A stretch of 24,502 nt of DNA, from positions 1 to 24,502 of the IMG/VR virus record IMGVR_UViG_3300035701_001486, one strand, 5' to 3'. This document shows, in pieces, positions 1 to 23,555 of this stretch. A model generated the notes under the pieces. That model was not told the DNA's origin. It saw only the letters and a program-made list of their open reading frames with translations, and made no database searches. Numbering within the stretch: position 1 is the stretch's first letter; each line of letters begins with the position of its first letter. The position numbers were made by a program, and so were the translations under genes. The DNA is from a virus.

Positions 1-318
1 CGCGGTCCCAATGCGCGTGACGAAGTTGTTGTTCAGGTCCGTCAGCTCGCTCATCTCCCCGATGGCGAGTGCCGCGCCGGCACGCACGCCCCAGCGCGTC
101 AGCCTGCGATTGAGTCGGTTCTCTAGGCGCTCGATGTCGTCGGTATTCCTAGCCCTGATTTCCGCCCGCATGGTTGCGCGTTCCATGCGAGCATCCCCCA
201 TCGGGGCTCTTGATTGTCTTGGTACATATGTCCCGCCCGCCAGCGATTGAGTCTCCGGGGTGCGCAGTTCGCTGGTGTCGAGCCTTAACTTGATCGAGAC
301 TTCATTTTCCAGCGCCAC
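1..318 (-). CDS. Probable tail tape measure protein, N-terminal part (runs off left edge)
   Basis: This minus-strand frame stays open from a GTG at 318 to the window edge, giving about 106 residues. The N-terminus (VALENEVSIKLRLDTSEL) resembles the short beta-strand start common in tape measure proteins. It is followed by an Arg/Glu-rich helical stretch and a small hydrophobic patch (AGAALAIG). It sits after the tail tube and the chaperone-slot gene, where a tape measure is expected. The GTG is the first possible start after an in-frame stop and has no clear Shine-Dalgarno. It overlaps the end of the preceding gene by 17 bp, so translation may be coupled or reached by frameshift. A later ATG at 201 is an alternative start. 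The tape-measure identity is inferred from position and N-terminal style; it could be another minor tail protein. Confidence 0.6.
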   Translation of the reverse strand, partial: MALENEVSIKLRLDTSELRTPETQSLAGGTYVPRQSRAPMGDARMERATMRAEIRARNTDDIERLENRLNRRLTRWGVRAGAALAIGEMSELTDLNNNFVTRIGTA

Positions 319-691
319 GTTTTGCGATCATATCCGCCGCGATCGCGGCAAAGGCGATAAGATCGTCTCCCTCAAGATGCTTGGAAACCTCGGGCGGATC
401 AAAGAATGCGTCCACGTTCACCGCCACGCCGTAGGCCGAAGTCGCCGCCTTGTCAAGCTCCTTGAGCAGGGTCTTGGCGTTGTCAGCCGCGTCCGTGTAG
501 TCCGCTTGGCCAGCCATGAAGGCGTTGCGGGCCGCCCGAAGCATCCCGTAGACGCGCCCGGCTTCCTCAAGCAACCGCCTGAACTCCTCCACTTCCTCGG
601 GCTTGAGAAACACAAACTTCAACGTGACGGGAGTTGGAGATCCATTCCTGAATTCCACCCCGTCCTGGCTGAACGCCCATTTGCAAGCCAT
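302..691 (-). CDS. Small tail protein in the tail-assembly-chaperone slot (129 aa)
   Basis: The 129-residue protein starts at an ATG with a good upstream GGAGGG. It has a beta-rich N-terminus (KWAFSQDGVEFRNGSPTPVTLKFVFL) and then a mainly helical, acidic/basic body rich in Ala, ending RGAGK. No family is recognised from sequence. It lies between the tail-tube region and the probable tape measure, the place usually held by tail assembly chaperones. Its stop codon lies inside the start region of the next gene, which is in the +1 frame relative to it. Function is inferred from gene order only. Confidence 0.75.
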   Translation of the reverse strand: MACKWAFSQDGVEFRNGSPTPVTLKFVFLKPEEVEEFRRLLEEAGRVYGMLRAARNAFMAGQADYTDAADNAKTLLKELDKAATSAYGVAVNVDAFFDPPEVSKHLEGDDLIAFAAIAADMIAKRGAGK

Positions 692-11062: not shown

Positions 11063-12933
11063 CACACGCTCCTTTCCACCTCGGCCTCCAGGGCCGCACG
11101 CAACCTTGACCGCAAGTCCCCCGCCATGTGCGCCATATCGCCCTTCGTCGGCGGTTGCAACCTCACCGGGGGCGGTGTCCCCCGATGCGCCGCGAACAGC
11201 CGCTTGATCTCCTCGGGGATGCTCATAGGCGTGACCGCCTTGCGGATAAGGTCCGCTTCCTCATCCCCGATAAATTCGGTTTCAAACGACGACTTGGACA
11301 GCTTGCCCTCGCGGAGCCGTGCAAGCGCCCAGCGCTCCCATTCGCCCAGCTCGGCCAAGCGCGCCTTCAACATCGCCTTTTGCGTAAAGGCAGGGGGCGG
11401 GGCTTTCTCCTGCGCGGGCGGCTCTGCCGGCGCACCCGACGCCACGGGCGGCTGCTGCATCTGCGCGGCCATCTGCTGCTGCATCTGCTGACGCTGCGCC
11501 TCCTCACGCGCCAACGATTCCCGCGTGGGGAATACCTGATAGCCCCCGCCGGTCATGATGCCTGGCGGTATATCAAGGGGCTTCATGCCCTCTTCCTCGC
11601 GCACCTCGTCGAGCGTCAGCACGCCGACCTTGATATATTCGACGTTGCGCTCGACGCGCTTCATCTGCAAGCGCCCGCGATCCGTGATCCAGTTGAAGTT
11701 CAGCCAGGGCATCGCCAGCTCGTGGTCGATGATCTCGTTGACCATCTTCTCGATGAACTGCTTCAACACCGCCACGCCTCCCTCGGCTTCGGAATCGCCA
11801 AGCTCCTCCGCTACGCTGCGATTCGTCATCGAGATGAACGGTATCGGGCTGATACCGCAGGCGAAACAGAATACACGCGCCATCCATTCATCGAAGCTGT
11901 TCTTCGTGTTGTAGAGTTCGTCCTCCTTGAACTTCGTCAGGTTGAAGCCTTCGGGTACGAACTTGATGCGGCTGCGGTTCTGGATATCTCCCGCCAAGAG
12001 CGAATCCCAATACTCCTGCCATTGCCTGATCTCCTCGGGCGTCCAGTCTTTCGGCACGCTGCCCACGCCCGTGGGGATGTTCCCGTCCGTGAATTGCGCG
12101 AGCTGCATCAACTCCCGCCGCATCCCCTGGTTGATCGTGACGGCCGTTTGCTCCGTGGGCGGGTATCCATAAAACTTATTCGCCCGCCGCGTCATCGGCC
12201 TGTAGATCAACTCCTCCCGCGTCATGTTCGCATACGGCACGCCGTAGAGGAACTGCTGATACGCCGGGATCGGACGCACCGTGGACGATATCGGCTCGAA
12301 TCCACGCGTGTCGCATAGCGCCTTGATGGTGCTGCCGTCGATCACCTCCAACGCCCACAACTTGCCGTTGCGCGACCGATGCTTGTAGATCGCCAGCGCA
12401 TCGAGTACGAGGATCTCCTCCAACACCATGCCGAGCCATTCGTGCCACGAGTGGCGCTTGTCGGGCTTCTCCCAGAACTCCTTGCAGACGGCGATATCCG
12501 CCGAGTAGTCCACGCCGCTGTCGGTTTCCTGCGGCACGATGTCCCATTCGTGGGCCTTCAACGAGTTCTTGATATGCTCGATGATGATCCTGATGATCGT
12601 GTACTCCCCGAGGGAGCGCAGTTGCGCGAAGCTGACTTGTTCCGTCGAGCGCGGCTGGATGGCGATGTTGTAGCCGGGCGTGAACTGGAACTTGCGCGGG
12701 GGTTCGCCGGGCGGCTGCTTGGGCGTCAACGGCACGTTGCCCGTCAACCAGGGGTCTTTGCCGAGGAACACGTCGTCGTACTGGTGCATCCCCGAGAGGA
12801 AGCTCGATTCCGCCGGCGTCATCAGCCCTACGCTCTTGGCGAGCTTGCCCGCGGCGCCCAGGAGCTTGAACAGCGGCCCCGTCTTTTTAGATGCCGAGGG
12901 ACCGGGCTTCGTCGATTTGTCGTTGTCTGCCAT
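11062..12933 (-). CDS. HK97-type portal protein (623 aa)
   Basis: This is a long portal protein with the expected central fold: EQVSFAQLRSLGEYTIIRIIIE, followed by a crown/stem region. The stretch SIIRI... to PFISMTNRSVAEELGDSEA (about residues 105-390) is the part most like HK97-type portals. A Gln-rich low-complexity stretch (QRQQMQQQMAAQMQQ) and a charged tail (ELGEWERWALARLREGK) make up the C-terminal ~150 residues. I start at ATG 12933, supported by AGGGGG upstream. That places it 47 bp inside the end of the terminase gene. Twelve portal subunits would form the DNA entry ring and bind the large terminase. Confidence 0.85.
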   Translation of the reverse strand: MADNDKSTKPGPSASKKTGPLFKLLGAAGKLAKSVGLMTPAESSFLSGMHQYDDVFLGKDPWLTGNVPLTPKQPPGEPPRKFQFTPGYNIAIQPRSTEQVSFAQLRSLGEYTIIRIIIEHIKNSLKAHEWDIVPQETDSGVDYSADIAVCKEFWEKPDKRHSWHEWLGMVLEEILVLDALAIYKHRSRNGKLWALEVIDGSTIKALCDTRGFEPISSTVRPIPAYQQFLYGVPYANMTREELIYRPMTRRANKFYGYPPTEQTAVTINQGMRRELMQLAQFTDGNIPTGVGSVPKDWTPEEIRQWQEYWDSLLAGDIQNRSRIKFVPEGFNLTKFKEDELYNTKNSFDEWMARVFCFACGISPIPFISMTNRSVAEELGDSEAEGGVAVLKQFIEKMVNEIIDHELAMPWLNFNWITDRGRLQMKRVERNVEYIKVGVLTLDEVREEEGMKPLDIPPGIMTGGGYQVFPTRESLAREEAQRQQMQQQMAAQMQQPPVASGAPAEPPAQEKAPPPAFTQKAMLKARLAELGEWERWALARLREGKLSKSSFETEFIGDEEADLIRKAVTPMSIPEEIKRLFAAHRGTPPPVRLQPPTKGDMAHMAGDLRSRLRAALEAEVERSV

Positions 12934-15472
12934 CCACGACCCCCTCTTGCCGAAGTGCCTGCGTAGCACCAGGGACATCACTCATGCCCCTCACCGATGC
13001 CGCCTCTTTATCTTGTACCCCGCTTTTGTTGAGATTGCAAGCGCGAGCCCGCATATATTCCAAGAGTCCCCAGTTGGCCTTGCCCTTGGCGGCTACGGCG
13101 TCGGCTATCGCGGGCGGTACGGACGCAAGCGCGAGCGCATCGGCGCGGTCTGGAGAATACCCGAGCCGACGCTTCGCTTCCGCCTTCTCCTCAAGCTTGA
13201 TCTGCCCTTTGCTCGTCATCTTGTACCTCAATACGCTCAAGTCGCGTAGCAGCTTCTTGTCGGAGGGATCGAGCGCGATCTCGCCCGTCCTGAACCTCTC
13301 CCGCAACACCCAGAAGATTTCGGATCGTGCGTTAGCGTACTTCTCCTGATCGCTCGAATTGCTGCCGAAGTTGATAGCCTTGATTCGATGCCCCTGCTCT
13401 ACGAGTCTATCGGTTACGCCACCGCCCAGGCCCGTGTCGTCCACCATGACGTTCTCGTAGGAGATGCCCTCCGATGCGAACTTGATGATCCTCCCCGTCG
13501 TGTCCATCAAGTCAGCGCCTTGCACGGCGTGGACACAACGGAACTTGATGCCCTCGCCCTTGTAGAATACCGTTTGATCCGAGCCGAAACGTGCGATGTC
13601 GCAACCGAGCGCCGCGGCAAGCCCTGTCGGCGCATCGTTCCACTTGGCGTATGCCTTCTCGATCCACGCCAGGGGGATCAGCGTATCCGCTACGTCATCG
13701 GGGAATACGCCGAGTACACGCGCCTTCCAAACGGGGCTATCCTCGCCGAACTCTTGCCGTATCTCCTCGATCCATTGTTTCGAGCAGTAGGACGACAAGC
13801 GGCTGTCAAGCGTGAACTGCTTATACATCGCCGCGTTGCGCGTGAACATGGCGTAGAATTCGCTGTCGGGCTCGTACGTCGCGTTGCCGATACAAAGTTC
13901 CCGCGCCTCCCCTACGGAAGTCATCAGCGAGTTGATTCCCGGCCAGATACGCGCCTCCACGCCAGGCGCTTCCGTCACGATCACAAGCAAGTTGGGGGAG
14001 TGAAACCCCTGGAACGCATTCGAGTCCTTCGCCGTGAACCCGATGATGAAGTGCTCGCTGTCTACCTTGCCGTCGGGAAGGAAGCTCTTGAGCATGGAGT
14101 CGTTTAACTCCCCGCCGATCTCGTATCGCGCATGGTTGTACGCGGCCTTTAGTTCCCCCCAGGTGATGTAGTTGACCTGGCGCTCGGTGGGGCCTGTGAT
14201 GACGACCTTCGACGGATAGTGCGTCAAGTGAAACCACAACCCGAGGCGGGCGGAACAGAAGTCCTTCCCGCAGTTCCTAAGCACCATGTAGTCAGCGCCG
14301 AGTATGCGATGATTCCCGTCTACGTTGAACCCGTAGTAGCCTCCCTCTCCAAGATATTCAATCTTTTCTATCCCGAATCGCGTCACGATCCTTGATGGTC
14401 CGCGTACATACTTCTTCCGCTTGATGCGGCATGGAATCGGGAAGTTGAACGACATGTACACGCGCCAGTAGACTCCCTCGGTGTGATGCGTTGCGTCAAA
14501 GTCCGTCGATACATACTTTGGGCTCATGTGCGCACTCCCTCCTACCGAGCGCACAAGCTCAACGATCTGCTCCGATAACTCGCGCCGCTTCTGGATGAAG
14601 TCGTAGCAGCCAGGACGGATCATGGAACCATCCGTATCCAACAGCCCCGCCAACAACTCAAGCCTATCCTTCCGAGTGGACAGCATATAATCAGCGGGTA
14701 TGTGCTTGTTCTTGAATACGCCGATCTCCTTCAGTTTCTCAACGAATGGATTCCTATGCTGCCTTCTGAACAATCCCCCATCATAGCTCGTTGATATCCA
14801 CCAGTTCTTCCCGTTCTTGTTGGGAGATAACCAACATCCGATGGAGTCGGAATATCGTTTCAATTCCTCGATGACCTCTTCATCCGTGTTGCAGAAGTCG
14901 CCCCCCCCCTCGTATCCATCTCCGAGCCACACGCCAAGGATGTACGGTGGGATCGGCTGATACTTCTTCGTATATTCAGCACTCGCCCTGAATCCTGCAT
15001 GACGCCGCCTTTTCTCCTTCGCCCATGCCGCTACATCCTCGATGGCCTCCTCGCATACGTCCCCCGTCTTGTATGCGTAGTGAGATGCCATCGCAACCAG
15101 GACAAGTTCATGCGGGCCGTTGTGGATGTACTCGGTCCCATCTCGATACGTCACCTTGAACATCCTGTCGCGCCCGTGATACAGGCAGCGCACGCGCCTG
15201 GGGGTTGAATCGTCCCCCATCAGAAGGTCATCGACTTCGATATCCTCTACGGACTTTACGCTCCCGTCGTACATCCTGAACATCGTCCCAGCCGCGAAGC
15301 ATGAATGCCCTGATTTCGCAACAAACCGCCGATGCTTCGGGAACTGCGATATCATCTCCTCCTGCTGCCTGTCGAGTTTGTCGCCGAGGACTTCGTTGAA
15401 GAAATAGATCGGATCTTCGATGGATTTCCTAAGCGCCTTGACGCACAACTCGGGGTCAGTGATTTTGTCCAT
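12887..15472 (-). CDS. Terminase large subunit with intein in its P-loop (861-aa precursor)
   Basis: The start is ATG 15472, overlapping the small terminase end by 17 bp; the frame upstream is an Arg/Ser-rich shadow. Residues 1-57 are the N-terminal ATPase region ending KSGHS. Residues 58-400 are the intein, and the ATPase continues with CGKDFCSARL. The joined protein (518 aa) reads SGHS+CGKD at the P-loop, and its Walker B region is LLVIVTEAPGV, with Thr where Asp is usual. The nuclease domain has GCDIARFGSDQT, VDDTGLGGG and SPDRADALAL, the three RNase-H-like acidic motifs. The enzyme pumps and cuts phage DNA at the portal. Family call is firm; the atypical P-loop and Walker B residues are noted for checking. 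Confidence 0.9.
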   Translation of the reverse strand: MDKITDPELCVKALRKSIEDPIYFFNEVLGDKLDRQQEEMISQFPKHRRFVAKSGHSCFAAGTMFRMYDGSVKSVEDIEVDDLLMGDDSTPRRVRCLYHGRDRMFKVTYRDGTEYIHNGPHELVLVAMASHYAYKTGDVCEEAIEDVAAWAKEKRRRHAGFRASAEYTKKYQPIPPYILGVWLGDGYEGGGDFCNTDEEVIEELKRYSDSIGCWLSPNKNGKNWWISTSYDGGLFRRQHRNPFVEKLKEIGVFKNKHIPADYMLSTRKDRLELLAGLLDTDGSMIRPGCYDFIQKRRELSEQIVELVRSVGGSAHMSPKYVSTDFDATHHTEGVYWRVYMSFNFPIPCRIKRKKYVRGPSRIVTRFGIEKIEYLGEGGYYGFNVDGNHRILGADYMVLRNCGKDFCSARLGLWFHLTHYPSKVVITGPTERQVNYITWGELKAAYNHARYEIGGELNDSMLKSFLPDGKVDSEHFIIGFTAKDSNAFQGFHSPNLLVIVTEAPGVEARIWPGINSLMTSVGEARELCIGNATYEPDSEFYAMFTRNAAMYKQFTLDSRLSSYCSKQWIEEIRQEFGEDSPVWKARVLGVFPDDVADTLIPLAWIEKAYAKWNDAPTGLAAALGCDIARFGSDQTVFYKGEGIKFRCVHAVQGADLMDTTGRIIKFASEGISYENVMVDDTGLGGGVTDRLVEQGHRIKAINFGSNSSDQEKYANARSEIFWVLRERFRTGEIALDPSDKKLLRDLSVLRYKMTSKGQIKLEEKAEAKRRLGYSPDRADALALASVPPAIADAVAAKGKANWGLLEYMRARACNLNKSGVQDKEAASVRGMSDVPGATQALRQEGVVDGRQRQIDEARSLGI
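14273..15301 (-). other. Intein (343 aa) with LAGLIDADG homing endonuclease, inserted in terminase P-loop
   Basis: The splice region begins Cys-Phe-Ala-Ala-Gly-Thr (CFAAGT, block A) and ends VLRN, followed by Cys as +1 residue. Block B is GPHELV; block F is YGFNVDGNHRILG. Two LAGLIDADG-type motifs (ILGVWLGDG and LLAGLLDTDG) mark a DOD-family endonuclease in the centre. The penultimate residue is Arg, not the usual His, so splicing may need a variant mechanism or be slow. The insertion point is inside the ATPase P-loop, so only spliced terminase should be active. By eye this stretch is less GC-rich than the flanks, in keeping with transfer. Confidence 0.88.
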
Positions 15473-15974
15473 TCGTCCCGTTCCCGTTTGCGGGCTTAGG
15501 CGGCAATTCCTTCGCGGTCGCATCGAGAATCCTCTGCGGCGACGCCTGCCCGCCGAAGCTTTGCGATACGATCTGGATGATCGTCTGCATCGACACGCGA
15601 TGGCCTTCCCCGTCCTTCGGTACGCCCGTGCCGAGAGGAAGCAGCAAACCCTCCGCACGCGCCACGCGCTCGACCTGGCGGCCGGCGCCCTCCATGGCGA
15701 GCTGCTTTTCTTCGAGCGTTGCGTTTGCGCTACCGAGCGTCTCGAACATGAGGTTGACCGCCTCCTCCGCGATATCGCACAAGTTCCGATACGTCTGATG
15801 CTGATGCTGCTTCCGGTCAACGTTGAACTCGGCTATTGCGTTTGCAACCTCGGGGTTGCGCATGAGGGAGAATCCTGAATACTTCGAGTAGCCCGCGCTC
15901 GCCGCGGATCGGCAAACCATTCCGCTGTTGACGACGTTCTCCACGAACTTGCGTTGCTGATCGTTCAAGGCCAT
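15456..15974 (-). CDS. Terminase small subunit (172 aa)
   Basis: The N-terminal ~55 residues form the DNA-binding domain of the Terminase_2 (small subunit) family: LNDQQRKFVENVVNSG, then RSAASAGYSKYSG and NPEVANAI. A helical oligomerisation region follows (ATLEEKQLAMEGAGRQVERVARAEG), and the C-terminus is polar and Gly/Asn-rich. The protein recognises the packaging start site and stimulates the large subunit. ATG 15974 has AGGA eight bases upstream. Its 3' end overlaps the large terminase start by 17 bp. It is the first gene of the leftward morphogenesis operon and lies just beside the TGAGACGGT repeat array. Confidence 0.85.
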   Translation of the reverse strand: MALNDQQRKFVENVVNSGMVCRSAASAGYSKYSGFSLMRNPEVANAIAEFNVDRKQHQHQTYRNLCDIAEEAVNLMFETLGSANATLEEKQLAMEGAGRQVERVARAEGLLLPLGTGVPKDGEGHRVSMQTIIQIVSQSFGGQASPQRILDATAKELPPKPANGNGTNGQNH

Positions 15975-16271
15975 GACGTTATCCTATCCCTTCTTGCCTT
16001 GAAAGCAAGGGTGAAAATCTTGCCTTGAAGCTCCGAGACGCGTATACGTCTAATCAAAAGCGAGCCCGAACCGTCGCCAGGGTTTTGATAGAGTACGTTT
16101 TTCAAGCAAAGTCTGAAAGTTGGTTTTCCGAACCGTCTCACAAAATCGCCACCGTGAGACAGTCCACCGTCTCAAACCCCCCTTTCCCCCTAAAGGGGGT
16201 GAGACGGTGAGACGGTCCCCCCCATGAGACGGTATGAGACGGTATGAGACGGTTCCATGAGACGGTTGTTT
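15975..16271. repeat. Gene-free region with TGAGACGGT repeat array and large hairpin
   Basis: This 297-bp gap holds no gene. Six exact copies of TGAGACGGT lie at 16200, 16208, 16225, 16235, 16245 and 16258, with 8-, 17-, 10-, 10- and 13-base steps. A one-mismatch copy is at 16155. The inverse, ACCGTCTCA, is at 16132 and 16166. The inverse at 16166-16174 plus a C-run and the direct copy at 16200-16208 plus a G-run form a 14-bp hairpin with a small AA bulge. Closer to terS are a repeat of CTTGCCTTGAA (15993-16003 and 16019-16029) and a GACG/CGTC palindrome around 16037-16050. It could be an origin, a packaging (cos/pac) site, or operators. Confidence 0.8.
16166..16208 (-). terminator. Long hairpin within repeat array, after helicase gene
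   Basis: ACCGTCTCA then CCCCC pairs with GGGGG then TGAGACGGT, giving 14 bp around a ~12-base loop, which itself contains an alternative CCCCC/GGGGG pairing. It lies 64 bp beyond the helicase stop codon in the leftward direction. No T-run follows, so it is not a textbook terminator. It could protect the mRNA 3' end, or extrude as a cruciform in the DNA. Confidence 0.45.
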
Positions 16272-17807
16272 TCATGGGTTATTATCAATGACTTGCGCGG
16301 TTTTTAGAACCTCGTAAATGATGGTCATTCCCTTCCCCTGTGGCGTCTCCGAGATAGCTTTGTCCGCAACGAGTCTATTCAAGATTCTATTGGTTGTCGG
16401 CTTCGAGATTCCCTTGTCCTTCATGATTTTCGTTATATCGCAACCCTTGACTTTGATACACCCTTGGAGGGCGATGGCTTTGAGGGTGTTCAGGACATCG
16501 TTGTAGTTGTCCTGGGGCTTGGGTTTCTTCTCCTTTACCTCGGGTTCAAGGCGCTCAAGCGTCCAGCGGACGGAGTTTTCGTCGGGCTTGGCGTCATAGG
16601 TGACGTTGAACTTGTAGCCCTCGTCGTACTTGGAAATCAGCCTTACTTCGGTGACGTTGGTTTCGCAGCGGTTGCCCCAGTCTAGGATGACGTCGGCGGC
16701 GGCGGATATGACGGAGCTACCGCGTGCGCGTTCAACGGAATCCTGCTGTTGTCCGTCGCCCTGGCCCTTGCGGGAATGGTGGATGTAGAGGATCGAGACT
16801 TTGAGATCCCTGACGATGCGCTTTAGGTTCGCCATCAGCGGCTTGACGTCGGCGCTGGAGTTTTCGTCCTCCGCCTGGTGGACGTAGGATAGAGTGTCGA
16901 TTACAACGATGTCGATCTTGAGTTCCTCGATCTTGTCGCGGAGCAGGCGGTTGCCTTGGGCGGTATCCATCATCAAGGTGGGATTGTCGCAAAGGTGGAA
17001 GTTGGCCGGGAGTTTGTAGCCGTCGTAGTCCATGCCGTTGAGGTAGCGACAGGCTCGCTTGACGATTAGGAGTGGGGAATCCTCGAAGGAGATATAGAGG
17101 ACGTTTGCGGGCCGGTCGGAGGCGTAAGCCCAGACGCCTGATTTCCATTCTCCGATGGATGCCGATAAAGCCGTATGGAGTGCGAACACGGACTTGCCCC
17201 CCTTGGGCGCCCCGTGGAGTTGCGTCAGGCAGCCCTTTATCAAGATCGGCTTGATAAGGTAGTCCACATCTACGTCAATCAGGTCCGCGAGGGAGGATAC
17301 GGGGACGACTTCCGATTGCGTGATAGTCTTCCAGTCCGGGGGCAGCGCCTTGAAACCATCCTTGGTCGCCGCCACGAGGTTGTCGATCTCGCCGTCAAGG
17401 GGCTCGCCGTGTTCGATCTTCGCCGCGATAATTGACGCCAGATGCGCCGCCTTGCGTCTTCCGTGATACTCAAGGATAGCATGAGCGAACTTGTCGATCC
17501 CGGTTTCGGTCGTATCGGGGCAGTCGTCCACGAGCGCGGCGAGCTTGGCGGGGCCGCCCATGCGCTCCAGGGCGCCGTCCCCGGAAAGCTCCGCCGCGAG
17601 CGTGACAAGATCCCCCGTCCCGCCCTTGGCGGCGATCTTCCGTAGCGCCCGCAGGATCGGCGCGTGGACTTGCGATATCGCGTCCTGCGGGAGGATGCCG
17701 TCCAGGCGTGCAAGCGCAGCCCCCGTGTCGGGCTGCATGACGAGCGCCCCCAGGAGACAGCGCTCGTGGATGAGGGCGGGCGTGAGCTTTTCAGCGGGCG
17801 ACTGCAT
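16272..17807 (-). CDS. DnaB-N / RepA-type replicative helicase (511 aa)
   Basis: Residues 10-120 resemble the DnaB N-terminal domain (HERCLLGALVMQPD, then QVHAPILRAL). The core ATPase is RepA/AAA_25-like: Walker A GAPKGGKS at 199-206, Walker B DIVVIDTLS at 299-307, and YIHHSRKGQGD (341-351) carrying the arginine/His-containing loop common in that family. The C-terminal ~80 residues (DITKIMKDKGISKPTTNRILNR) look like a winged helix that may bind DNA. The protein would unwind DNA at the phage origin. Start ATG 17807 has AGGGGG six bases before it. It is the main product of the leftward early transcript and ends just before the repeat array. The DnaB-N plus RepA-core layout is uncommon but consistent across the sequence. 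Confidence 0.85.
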   Translation of the reverse strand: MQSPAEKLTPALIHERCLLGALVMQPDTGAALARLDGILPQDAISQVHAPILRALRKIAAKGGTGDLVTLAAELSGDGALERMGGPAKLAALVDDCPDTTETGIDKFAHAILEYHGRRKAAHLASIIAAKIEHGEPLDGEIDNLVAATKDGFKALPPDWKTITQSEVVPVSSLADLIDVDVDYLIKPILIKGCLTQLHGAPKGGKSVFALHTALSASIGEWKSGVWAYASDRPANVLYISFEDSPLLIVKRACRYLNGMDYDGYKLPANFHLCDNPTLMMDTAQGNRLLRDKIEELKIDIVVIDTLSYVHQAEDENSSADVKPLMANLKRIVRDLKVSILYIHHSRKGQGDGQQQDSVERARGSSVISAAADVILDWGNRCETNVTEVRLISKYDEGYKFNVTYDAKPDENSVRWTLERLEPEVKEKKPKPQDNYNDVLNTLKAIALQGCIKVKGCDITKIMKDKGISKPTTNRILNRLVADKAISETPQGKGMTIIYEVLKTAQVIDNNP

Positions 17808-19527: not shown

Positions 19528-20694
19528 ATGGTCGAAGCAGCGGCGCAAAAGGTTCAAGGCGGGCCATCGGAGAACAAGGCGTTGATCCCGCAGGAGAAGG
19601 ACGCTGGCGCAATCGCCTTGCGGCCGCCCTCCTCGCAACTCCCGGCCCTGCCCGAGCGCGATCCGTACCAGGGCATTGCGGCGAAGGCGTTCCCGGCAAA
19701 GGCGCAGGAGATCCTCCAAGGGACCATCGACCCGGCGGACGTGGAAATCCGGCCCGATGGAATCGTCTACCTCCCCGAAATCATGTATCGGCGGGTGTTG
19801 AACAGGGCTTTCGGGGCCGGCGGCTGGGCGCTGATGCCCCGCGAGAAGCTCACCATGCAGGACGGCATCATGTACCAGCGGTGGCAGTTGATGGTGGACG
19901 GACGCTACGCGAGCGAGGCGGTGGGCGAACAGGAGTATTTCGCCAACAACCAGAACATGACGTTTGCGAGCGCCGCCGAGGCGACGAAATCCAACGCCAT
20001 GATGCGGTGCTGCAAAGACCTCGGCATCAGTAGCGAGTTGTGGACGCCGTCGTACATCGAGAACTGGAAGAAGCAGTACGCCATCAAGGTGTTCCGCCAG
20101 AAGGCAGTCAAGATGCCGTATCAATGGCGGCGCAAGGACCGGGAGCCGTTCTACGACGAAGCGCAAACGCAGCAGCAAGTGCAAAAACTTGAAGACACGA
20201 TGGGGTTTGTAAAGCCGACTTCCCATGTAGCCGCCCCCGCCCCCGGCGAACCGCAGCGCAAGCCGAAGGCGGCTGTCGCGCCCCCGCCGACGGCGGCGGC
20301 CAAACCCGCAGCGCCCCCCCAGGGCATGGTGGCATCGGCGGCACCCGTCAAGCCACCCACGGCCCCCGCCCCCGCCCACAAGCCGCCCTTGACATGGCGA
20401 GGCATCATCACGGAAGTGGCCGAGAAAAAGGGGACGACCAACGGTAGTCCCTGGACGATGTGGCGTATCAACGGCGAGGATTTCGGCGCCGTGACGTTTG
20501 ACAGCAATCTCGCGGATGAAGCCCAGGGCTACCAGATGTCTCTCGCCGTGGTGGACATCGGCTACCAGCAAGGCGCCCGCGGGCCGGTGATCCTTTCGCT
20601 CGCCTTCGCGGATGTCAAGGCCGCCGGGGATGCGGGAGACGCGATGGACTCCAGCACGCCCCCGGATGTGATCGACGCCGCGGAGGGGAGGTAG
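19528..20694 (+). CDS. Mgm101/Rad52-type annealing protein with C-terminal OB-like domain (388 aa)
   Basis: Residues ~65-205 carry the Mgm101-family pattern: IVYLPEIMYRRVLNRAFG, GGWALMPRE, GRYASEAVGEQEYF, and EATKSNAMMRCCKDLGISSELW. Mgm101 is a Rad52-like single-strand annealing protein known from yeast mitochondria, with phage relatives. Residues ~230-286 are a Pro/Ala-rich flexible linker. Residues ~287-365 look like an OB-fold (PLTWRGIITEVAEKKGTT, then MSLAVVDIGYQQG), which could bind single-stranded DNA. A GAAAGGAG precedes ATG 19528. It would pair complementary single strands in phage recombination, probably with the nuclease-like neighbour. The added OB-like module is not part of the classical Mgm101 protein as I know it. 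Confidence 0.85.
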   Translation: MVEAAAQKVQGGPSENKALIPQEKDAGAIALRPPSSQLPALPERDPYQGIAAKAFPAKAQEILQGTIDPADVEIRPDGIVYLPEIMYRRVLNRAFGAGGWALMPREKLTMQDGIMYQRWQLMVDGRYASEAVGEQEYFANNQNMTFASAAEATKSNAMMRCCKDLGISSELWTPSYIENWKKQYAIKVFRQKAVKMPYQWRRKDREPFYDEAQTQQQVQKLEDTMGFVKPTSHVAAPAPGEPQRKPKAAVAPPPTAAAKPAAPPQGMVASAAPVKPPTAPAPAHKPPLTWRGIITEVAEKKGTTNGSPWTMWRINGEDFGAVTFDSNLADEAQGYQMSLAVVDIGYQQGARGPVILSLAFADVKAAGDAGDAMDSSTPPDVIDAAEGR

Positions 20695-20695
20695 G

Positions 20696-21031
20696 ATGGA
20701 CCTGAAAGAGCGTCTGGCTAGGTCCGTAGCATCGCTCGGTTCGCAGAAAACCCGCAAAATTCGCGTTATTTCGCGGTCTCCGGTGCAAACCGCTCGAGAT
20801 ACGTGGAATAAGGCTATCACGCGGACTGATGCCCATTCAGCAACTTGCGGGCGCTGCAACAGGCGGCAGCATGATCCAGGCCTGGCGGTGATACTCGGGG
20901 CCTTGACGGACCCGAAACTCAATCCGTATCGCCAATGCAAAAAGGCGGTCGATTTGGAATCCGCCGAATGCCAAGCACGGATGGCATATCTCGCCGAAGG
21001 TGGGAAACTTCCCTGCGGGGAGGTATACTGA
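20696..21031 (+). CDS. Cysteine-rich early protein (111 aa), unrecognised
   Basis: The N-terminal half is basic and helical (LKERLARSVASLGSQKTRKI). The second half has CGRC at about residue 51, and single Cys residues near 80, 91 and 107, so a metal site is possible. It sits between the annealing protein and the nuclease-like gene, with ATG 20696 right after the previous stop and an AGGAGG-like site. The 3' end overlaps the next start by one base. No family recognised; an accessory role in recombination is inferred from position only. Confidence 0.7.
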   Translation: MDLKERLARSVASLGSQKTRKIRVISRSPVQTARDTWNKAITRTDAHSATCGRCNRRQHDPGLAVILGALTDPKLNPYRQCKKAVDLESAECQARMAYLAEGGKLPCGEVY

Positions 21032-21636
21032 TGACCACCGCCATCGACCGCGGCGATCACACGTACGTCAGCCCCGCAGGGCATATCCTACCGGGAATCT
21101 CCAGCGTCTTGCGTGCGGCGGGACTGCTGGCGGATATGCCCGGCGGCAACGAGGCGGCGATGCAACGTGGGAGTCGAGTCCACAAGGCCGTGGAATTCGA
21201 CACGACCAACGAACTTGACGAGGCGTCGATGGACGATGGGGAGTTGTTCCTCGTCCATGCGGCGCGGCGGGCCCGGCAGGATCTCAAGCTCGATATCATC
21301 GCCGTGGAGTCCTGCGTCTGCAACGAGGCGCTCGGGTACGCTACGAAGGTGGATGCCGTTGTGCGTTGGGAGGGGAAGTTGACGGTGGTGAACTACAAGA
21401 CGGGGAATTTTTACCGCCACTACCCGATCCAGATGGCGCTCGAGGCGTTGTGCGTGGAGGAACCCGTGCGGCGCCTGGGGATCTATCTGCGTCCGAGTAC
21501 CCACTATCTCATACAAGAGTACACCGACCGGGAGGACTACGCGGTGGCGAGAGCGTGCGCGACCATCGCGGCCTGGAAACGTGGACAGAAGAACAACGAG
21601 GAAGCGATGAGCGACCTGAAAGAGGAGATCGTATGA
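21031..21636 (+). CDS. PD-(D/E)XK nuclease-type protein with altered active site (201 aa)
   Basis: The layout matches RecB/Cas4-like nucleases: GSRVHKAVE at 47-55, AVES with E93, KVDAVV with D108, a strand, then VVNYKTG at 119-125, and IQMALEA (Q134) as the motif-IV-like glutamine. The catalytic [DE]-x-K motif reads N-Y-K, with Asn121 where Asp or Glu is expected. So the enzyme may be weak, need a changed metal set, or have lost cleavage. It overlaps the previous gene by one base. Paired with an annealing protein it would normally be the exonuclease of a recombination pair. Confidence 0.75.
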   Translation: MTTAIDRGDHTYVSPAGHILPGISSVLRAAGLLADMPGGNEAAMQRGSRVHKAVEFDTTNELDEASMDDGELFLVHAARRARQDLKLDIIAVESCVCNEALGYATKVDAVVRWEGKLTVVNYKTGNFYRHYPIQMALEALCVEEPVRRLGIYLRPSTHYLIQEYTDREDYAVARACATIAAWKRGQKNNEEAMSDLKEEIV

Positions 21637-22310
21637 CCAATACCATGATCGAGATGCCCGACAAGGGCGAACTCCAAGCGGCTACGGCGCCCGTGCTAAC
21701 GGCGGCCAGATGTCTCGTCATTACGGACAAGCCATCCCACGGCACGGGGATGAATCTGCTCAAGACGTTGGCCTGCGCCGAGCGCACCGTCAAGTCCAAG
21801 CTGAACCCCATCGTGGATACCGCCCACAAGGCCCACGCCATGTTGACGGCGCTCCGCAAGGAGCTGCTCGATCCCATCACCGAGGCCAAGGGAATCGTCA
21901 GCGGGAAGTTGATGGAGTACGAGGAGGCCGCGAAAGCCGCTGCCGAGGAGGAAGCCCGCCTGCTCGCCGAACAGGAGCGCAAGGCCGAGGAGGAGCGTAG
22001 GCTCCAGGCCGCCACGGATGCCGAGTCCCGCGGCGACAAGGCCGGAGCCGAGGCGATCCTGAACGAGCAGCCCGCCGAAGTCGTCGTCCACGTCGATGCG
22101 GAGGTCGCCGCCGTCGAGGGCGTCGGCAAGACCTATGAGGTATGGAGCGCGGAGGTGACGGACCTCGAGGCGCTCGTAGCACACGGCGTGGTGGAATACC
22201 TCCTGCCGAATACGGTGGCCTTGAACGCCATCGCCAGGGCCATGAAGGGCGGGTTGAAGATCCCCGGCGTGCGTGCCGTTTGCAAGACCACAAGGGCGGT
22301 GCGGGGATGA
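21633..22310 (+). CDS. Coiled-coil early protein (225 aa)
   Basis: Starts in an ATGA overlap. Residues ~45-145 form a long Lys/Glu/Ala-rich coiled coil with a repeated EEARLLAEQERKAEEE pattern. The C-terminal third has strands (VVVHVDAEVAAVEGVGKTYEVW) and a final helix. Proteins of this plan often occur beside annealing proteins in phage recombination operons, similar to DUF1351-type neighbours. Function is not known to me. The acidic-basic coiled coil could mediate oligomers or bind DNA-associated proteins. Confidence 0.7.
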   Translation: MTNTMIEMPDKGELQAATAPVLTAARCLVITDKPSHGTGMNLLKTLACAERTVKSKLNPIVDTAHKAHAMLTALRKELLDPITEAKGIVSGKLMEYEEAAKAAAEEEARLLAEQERKAEEERRLQAATDAESRGDKAGAEAILNEQPAEVVVHVDAEVAAVEGVGKTYEVWSAEVTDLEALVAHGVVEYLLPNTVALNAIARAMKGGLKIPGVRAVCKTTRAVRG

Positions 22311-22718: not shown

Positions 22719-22896
22719 CGAGCTTCCCGAGGAGCAGTCGCACCCGACGCACAAGGACAGCGGAGAGCGATGCCGTAGCTACCACCAGGATCACAAGTGC
22801 TGCGTGAAATGCGCCCTCTGCGGCGAATGGATACGCCCCGAGGATATGGCCGGCGAATGCCGCGGCTACGATCCCGTGAAGGGAGCGATGGCGTGA
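22708..22896 (+). CDS. Small cysteine-rich protein (62 aa)
   Basis: I take ATG 22708 as the start. The 62-residue protein carries several Cys and His residues (HKCCVKCALCGEW, then GECRGYD) that could form one or more zinc sites. It overlaps the preceding gene by 11 bp and the following GTG start by four bases. It belongs with the series of small zinc-type proteins at the right side of the window; role unknown. Confidence 0.6.
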   Translation: MTPNELPEEQSHPTHKDSGERCRSYHQDHKCCVKCALCGEWIRPEDMAGECRGYDPVKGAMA

Positions 22897-23555
22897 AAGA
22901 CTTCGGCTACGACACCGACAAGGCATGGGACTACGAGAACGGGTTCTACCTCACCTCGCCCGTGACGCGACTCGCCAAGGCGGTAGCGCATTACGAGTTA
23001 TACAAGTCGATCATCGGACTGCCTGGGCAAGTCGTGGAATGCGGCGTATTCAAGGGCGCCTCGCTCATCCGCTGGGCGACGTACCGGGAGATCCTCGAAA
23101 GCCCGCATTCGCGCAGGATCATCGGGTTCGACGCCTTCGGACAGTTCCCCGAGCAGACGGACGCCGCTGACGCCGCCTTCGCCGCCCATTGGGAGAAGGT
23201 TTGCGGCGAGGGGATCTCCGTGGGCGAACTCAATCGGCTGATGGCCGCCAAGGGACTCGTCAACAACATCGAGCTTGTACGCGGGGATATCGTCGAGACC
23301 GTGGAGGTCTACGCGAAGGCGCATCCCGAGTTGAAGATCGCGCTCCTGCACCTGGACGTGGACGTATACGCCCCCGCTATGGCCGTACTCCAGAACCTGT
23401 GGAAGCGCATCGTCCCCGGCGGCCTGCTCGTCATGGATGACTACGGGACGCTACCAGGGGAGACGCGGGCGGTGGATGAATGGTTCGCCGGCCAGCGCGT
23501 GGAGATCCAGAAGCTGCCTTTGAGCCACGTCCCGGCGTTTGTGAGGAAGATATGA
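22893..23555 (+). CDS. TylF-type O-methyltransferase (220 aa)
   Basis: The sequence has the TylF/MycF sugar O-methyltransferase motifs: VVECGVFKGAS at 47-57 (SAM-binding), GFDAFGQF at 78-85, HLDVDVY at 153-159 with the metal-binding acidic residues, and VMDDYG at 180-185. Start is GTG 22893, overlapping the previous stop in a GTGA, with AGGGAG eight bases upstream. The family methylates hydroxyls of deoxysugars using SAM and a divalent metal. In a phage this might modify glycans on the virion or on the host. Its partner enzyme could be the DUF115-type protein of the head operon; that pairing is inference. Confidence 0.85.
   Translation: MKDFGYDTDKAWDYENGFYLTSPVTRLAKAVAHYELYKSIIGLPGQVVECGVFKGASLIRWATYREILESPHSRRIIGFDAFGQFPEQTDAADAAFAAHWEKVCGEGISVGELNRLMAAKGLVNNIELVRGDIVETVEVYAKAHPELKIALLHLDVDVYAPAMAVLQNLWKRIVPGGLLVMDDYGTLPGETRAVDEWFAGQRVEIQKLPLSHVPAFVRKI

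Follow-up and report, generated by a model that had tools for sequence, protein, structure and literature searches.

Iteron arrays around a hairpin core directly downstream of AAA_25 helicase genes: a putative replication origin in a phage and similar arrangements in other phages

We propose that a dense array of nine-base iterons, found immediately 3' of a replicative helicase gene in a stretch of viral DNA, is a phage replication origin, and that the phage's own AAA_25 helicase, encoded next to it, probably serves as the initiator; from sequence comparison we put the probability of this reading at roughly 0.8. The stretch, referred to here as the window, comprises 24,502 nt (positions 1 to 24,502 of IMG/VR virus record IMGVR_UViG_3300035701_001486). 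The layout recurs in dozens of otherwise different phages, in which the repeated word is nearly always another. The gap that holds the array is bordered by the terminase small subunit gene terS and the helicase gene, and its features are as follows.

15456 to 15974, minus strand: terminase small subunit gene, terS (PHROG 51, 6.8e-7; Terminase_2, 1.2e-4), beside the putative origin and not considered part of it
15975 to 16271, no strand: intergenic region with the proposed origin, 51.5% GC against 60% in the window
16132 to 16140, minus strand: iteron, exact, left arm
16155 to 16163, plus strand: iteron, near copy TGAGACAGT, left arm, in the orientation opposite to its neighbours
16166 to 16174, minus strand: iteron, exact, left arm; belongs to the outer hairpin
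16186 to 16199, minus strand: hairpin core, which is CCCCCTTTAGGGGG in the direction of the helicase gene and is centred 79 bp beyond the stop codon of that gene
16200 to 16208, plus strand: iteron, exact, right arm; belongs to the outer hairpin
16208 to 16216, plus strand: iteron, exact, sharing one base with the copy at 16200
16225 to 16233, plus strand: iteron, exact
16235 to 16243, plus strand: iteron, exact
16245 to 16253, plus strand: iteron, exact
16258 to 16266, plus strand: iteron, exact
16272 to 17807, minus strand: AAA_25/DnaB_N replicative helicase gene, 511 aa, proposed self-loading initiator (PF13481, 2.4e-26; PF00772, 1.6e-9)
16293 to 16514, minus strand: predicted winged-helix-like C-terminal domain of the helicase (about residues 432-505), proposed iteron reader

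The array (16132-16266) contains eight exact copies of TGAGACGGT, six on the plus strand and two inverted, together with one near copy, exactly the set that the earlier note had described within 135 bp. All eight exact occurrences of GAGACGGT in the window lie inside it; in 60 order-1 Markov simulations the most frequent 9-mer of any kind reached only 2-4 copies (once 6), and the window as a whole contains 12 matches to the iteron with at most one mismatch, against a mean of 4.9 and a largest value of 10 in 100 dinucleotide shuffles. Left and right of the core the exact iterons are all in dyad orientation. The hairpin built from an inverted and a direct copy plus C/G runs, also noticed earlier, is borne out: the arms 16165-16179 and 16195-16209 are 87% complementary, the inner core CCCCCTAAAGGGGG (16186-16199) is perfect and reads as a CCCCC-TTTA-GGGGG hairpin on the helicase strand, and single-strand folding of 16125-16275 is far stronger than that of shuffles (z = -5.4 for the minus strand and -5.1 for the plus strand). 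The only reading frame to overlap the array is an unsupported antisense ORF of 61 codons (16025-16210, plus strand), which covers its left part. Clustered iterons beside replication genes, a general mark of phage origins, are present in the window. The cumulative GC-skew minimum of the window falls at 16190, within the array, which is weakly consistent with an origin; the helicase gene and the minus-strand genes that flank it have opposite skews.

The helicase of the window matches the Pfam families AAA_25, DnaB N-terminal and DnaB_C only, with a PF13481 score of 93 bits against a curated cut-off of 27, and a fold search with it leads to DnaB; among solved structures, the first match of the helicase-group profile is RSF1010 RepA. 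The AAA_25 domain is found in all ten group helicases tested, and their N-terminal modules, where recognised, vary (Toprim, PriCT_2 or Prim-Pol, and DnaB_N in the window). An AlphaFold model places helices at residues 432-447, 458-464 and 469-481 with pLDDT of about 60-70, giving a C-terminus that weakly resembles a winged helix; a single-sequence model of this domain alone is of low confidence, and all HTH and wHTH Pfam matches of the last 80 or so residues are below threshold. Searches with helicase peptide patterns in IMG/VR and with DNA among cultured phages turned up no close relative of the window.

Other genes of the window include a large terminase gene (12887-15820, minus strand) that carries an intein (Hom_end_hint, 1.6e-13, ORF residues 174-288), after which the terminase resumes; by eye, the intein interrupts the P-loop, or Walker A, region (AKSGHS / CGKDF). 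In a recombination module at 19528-22310 (plus strand), exonuclease-type genes come after that of an MGM101/Rad52-like annealing protein, which matches PF06420 (1.4e-58) but no PHROG, and a TylF-type methyltransferase gene (22797-23555, plus strand, 3.5e-17) lies within the phage context.

The arrangement recurs after distant AAA_25 helicases when no word is assumed. Forty-eight loci with such helicases were taken and 44 of them, with near-duplicates left out, were searched for clustered 7-mers; the top cluster was centred 5-282 bp past the helicase stop codon in 14 of the 44 and within 300 bp upstream of the helicase start in none. The window and locus L104 show the same placement but had been chosen for their arrays. 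The words differ from array to array (AGTGACA, GGTAACA, AGCCACT, TGTCACA, CGGTATC, CAGCACA, AAACGAC, CAGTACC, CGGTAAC, ATGGAAG, ACCGGGA and others); inspection of about ten loci revealed a common anatomy of iterons, a C-run, an A+T-rich centre (TTTA, TATA or TTAA), a G-run and inverted iterons. Similar arrays with a hairpin after AAA_25 helicase genes in many phages lend good support to the origin reading of the earlier note; its expectation that the repeats would be conserved in relatives holds for the layout and the hairpin core and fails for the word itself, which differs between phages.

A reciprocal scan of IMG/VR with the 14-bp core of the window alone leads back to the same kind of helicase. 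The control was its reversal GGGGGATTTCCCCC, a hairpin of identical composition; each scan returned at least 120 contigs, and the counts refer to the matches listed. Among these, an AAA_25-type helicase is present in 60/120 core contigs versus 4/120 controls (p = 1e-17); in 41/120 versus 0/120 (p = 1.4e-14) its 3' end falls between -60 and 400 bp from the core, most commonly at a distance of 50-150 bp. At least four copies of one 7-mer lie no more than 200 bp from the core in 35 of these 41 listed loci, compared with 6/120 listed controls. Loci with at least four oriented iteron copies number 36 including the window, and 34 are left once similar helicases are removed, indicating that the recurrence is not one lineage counted repeatedly. 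A seeming tendency of the iterons to point at the core was rejected as a product of selection favouring such loci; in the unbiased left/right test used instead, left and right copies are mutually inverted across the core at 18 loci versus 5 (p about 0.01). The similarity of the helicases correlates with that of the words (Mantel r = 0.21, p = 0.002); the idea that the word tracks the C-terminal domain specifically was dropped, the domain following it no more closely than the helicase core does (r = 0.08, p = 0.05). An adjacent helicase is missing at about half of the listed core matches, and at least four 7-mer copies occur in 34 of the 79 listed matches of this kind, some of which have a helicase 1-1.5 kb off. 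Six loci (L333, L364, L389, L429, L440, L445) share ACTTACC iterons around a CCCCCTTTAGGGGG core and lack an AAA_25 helicase up to 400 bp away; their initiator may be encoded elsewhere or belong to another family.

Arrays after AAA_25 helicases are also found in cultured phages: Salicola CGphi29 (word GGGGACA; CCCCCCTGTAGGGGG), Roseobacter CRP-821 (ten copies of GTATAAA; CCCTTTAGGG), Escherichia sortregn (word GTAAC; CCCCCCCTTATAGGGGGGG) and Enterococcus EFC-1 (word AATAGCT; CTCCCTTCCAGGGA). The arrangement is looser but similar in Escherichia IME_EC2, Escherichia jat (seven copies of GCGGGAC) and Streptococcus Javan68, and no such array was seen, by the identical search or by eye, in the AAA_25 phages BFK20, Trine, TomBombadil, Lauer and Vibrio 1245. 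A GC-skew switch is seen in the window and, no nearer than to within 1-2 kb, in CGphi29 and sortregn; being absent in CRP-821 and most other loci, it was rejected as general proof of an origin.

The window's own word was followed as the motif TGAGACnGT. A two-copy scan of IMG/VR supplied L104, in the order CHC2-type primase, AAA_25 helicase, array, an interval (with an HNH gene by eye) and terS, and L078, in the order AAA_25 helicase, array and primase (CHC2-type by eye). The motif as a universal signal was discarded: a three-copy scan of IMG/VR gave 27 stretches and the reversed control 21, and many of these stretches were coding repeats; the word by itself therefore shows no enrichment over its reversal in viral contigs. 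A scan of genome contigs returned largely simple octamer tandem repeats from unrelated bacteria; octamers of the form TGAGACGG/TGAGACTG stand in tandem at several loci of one genome, in unrelated phyla: in one Oceanospirillales MAG (L130, L141, L145, L157, L163, L178), one Bacteroidales MAG (L124, L139, L146, L154, L181, L191) and a Gemmatimonadaceae MAG (L179, L180, L188). In four related viral contigs (L023, L047, L069, L257), TGAGACAGT arrays in both orientations surround a tRNA-like sequence and are perhaps an attachment or integration feature. L041 carries a ACCGTCTCA-type array inside an open-ended gene (3-422, minus strand) that resembles a DnaD-like phage initiator by eye and has no Pfam match, apparently the same word with another type of initiator.

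The earlier note had also raised a packaging site, in which the small terminase binds the repeats of a pac or cos site and packaging starts there. That terS is the next gene in the window speaks for this, as does L101, in which a related TGAGACAGT array immediately precedes terS and no helicase is visible. Elsewhere, however, the array keeps to the helicase: a primase gene comes next in L078 and a gene for a hypothetical protein in CRP-821, CGphi29, EFC-1 and sortregn, and in these five terS or terL lies kilobases away. Apart from L101, terS is not adjacent in the annotated array-bearing phages, CRP-821, CGphi29 and EFC-1 among them; it follows in the window, and in L104 after the interval. 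The CRP-821 genome has 12 copies of its word, 10 of them within the array and none next to terS. Because the array accompanies the helicase and not terS, we consider a pac site very unlikely. Also very unlikely is a part in transcription, whether as operators for the helicase or the late genes or as a terminator. The hairpin is intergenic, operators can be repeated sites, and a single weak match to a terminator lies where the helicase gene ends; on the other side, the core hairpin has no following T-run, the array stands 3' of the helicase gene and the genes beyond it differ, the reversed hairpin of equal composition lacks the helicase association, and we found no positive evidence for the late operators that had been suggested.

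It is most improbable that the array is a non-functional tandem expansion of the TGAGACGG octamer. TGAGACnG tandem arrays in several MAGs and the near parity of the three-copy motif with its reversal would fit such an expansion, but spacing is irregular, the copies form a dyad around a recurring core and the place after the helicase is fixed; the association of the core with the helicase contradicts an expansion. A reading that keeps the origin but has the iterons read by a separate initiator that recruits the helicase, in the style of RepC in RSF1010 or O in lambda, we regard as unlikely. It draws on the nearest solved relative, RSF1010 RepA, which depends on another iteron-binding protein, on small genes without assigned function upstream of the helicase, and on the weak co-variation of the word with the C-terminal domain. 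Against it, the array is tied to the 3' end of the helicase gene despite differing neighbours and N-terminal modules, and an unsystematic look noticed no conserved second gene.

For an origin fired by its own helicase, we propose that the C-terminal winged-helix-like domain would read the iterons and that the helicase would assemble on the two oppositely oriented halves of the array. The DNA would then open either at the A+T centre or where the hairpin is extruded, and two helicase rings would depart in opposite directions, giving bidirectional replication; two self-loaded rings would make a separate initiator or loader unnecessary. The sequences themselves show the position of the array, its architecture and its recurrence; iteron binding, recognition by the C-terminus, the role of the hairpin, bidirectional loading and origin activity are in this scheme what we infer, and self-loading on the helicase's own iterons is suggested by the match of the layout to SaPI Rep and SCCmec Cch2.

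Several known systems share parts of this design. In phage P4, alpha is a single protein that combines the helicase with the iteron-binding initiator through a C-terminal winged helix and type I iterons; it is an SF3 helicase with GGTGAACA-type iterons, whereas the window has an AAA_25 core and a different word, and the P4 origin and crr layout is unlike that of the window. RSF1010 RepA/RepC/oriV likewise joins a homologous hexameric helicase to an iteron origin, but a separate RepC binds its long iterons and RepA lacks the extra C-terminal domain of the window helicase. In lambda, O/P and ori likewise link a replication gene to a phage origin whose iterons are inverted repeats; unlike in the window, these lie inside the initiator gene, and the host helicase is loaded by P. 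The closest layout is that of SaPI Rep and SCCmec Cch2, for which the parts of PMC7581432 drawn on here describe an iteron origin with inverted and direct repeats directly 3' of the helicase gene and a helicase proposed to self-load, as we propose for the window. According to the same parts, binding of the iterons directly downstream of the helicase gene by the C-terminal domain of Cch2 was shown biochemically, and SaPI Rep has a similar downstream-origin layout (PMC7581432, citing Ubeda et al. 2007). Those helicases are of the DUF927 or D5/Primase_Cterm type, in contrast to the AAA_25 RecA fold of the window, and a C-run/A+T/G-run core like that of the window is not described for them in these parts of the source (PMC7581432). 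An initiator helicase with downstream iterons is known; the window would add another helicase family with a hairpin core of its own. We found no description of such an origin class in phages in the open-licence literature, a scope that could miss a report in a subscription journal.

On balance we lean towards a widespread, apparently undescribed origin class, in which AAA_25 helicases would initiate by themselves at a C-run/A+T/G-run hairpin right 3' of their gene, in tailed phages of proteobacterial, firmicute and uncultured hosts, with drift of the word giving each phage a nearly private replication specificity. The origins of metagenomic phages are mostly unknown; if the proposal is true, an iteron dyad around such a hairpin just 3' of an AAA_25 helicase gene would predict them for a large set of phages. 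Firing of an origin by a self-loading DnaB/RepA-type helicase would then be directly testable in E. coli K-12 phages (sortregn and jat both have MG1655 as the host on record), and the many natural helicase/iteron pairs would allow the study of how recognition specificity changes. It would also suggest that the self-loading logic of the SaPI and SCCmec helicases arose in a RecA-fold helicase family as well.
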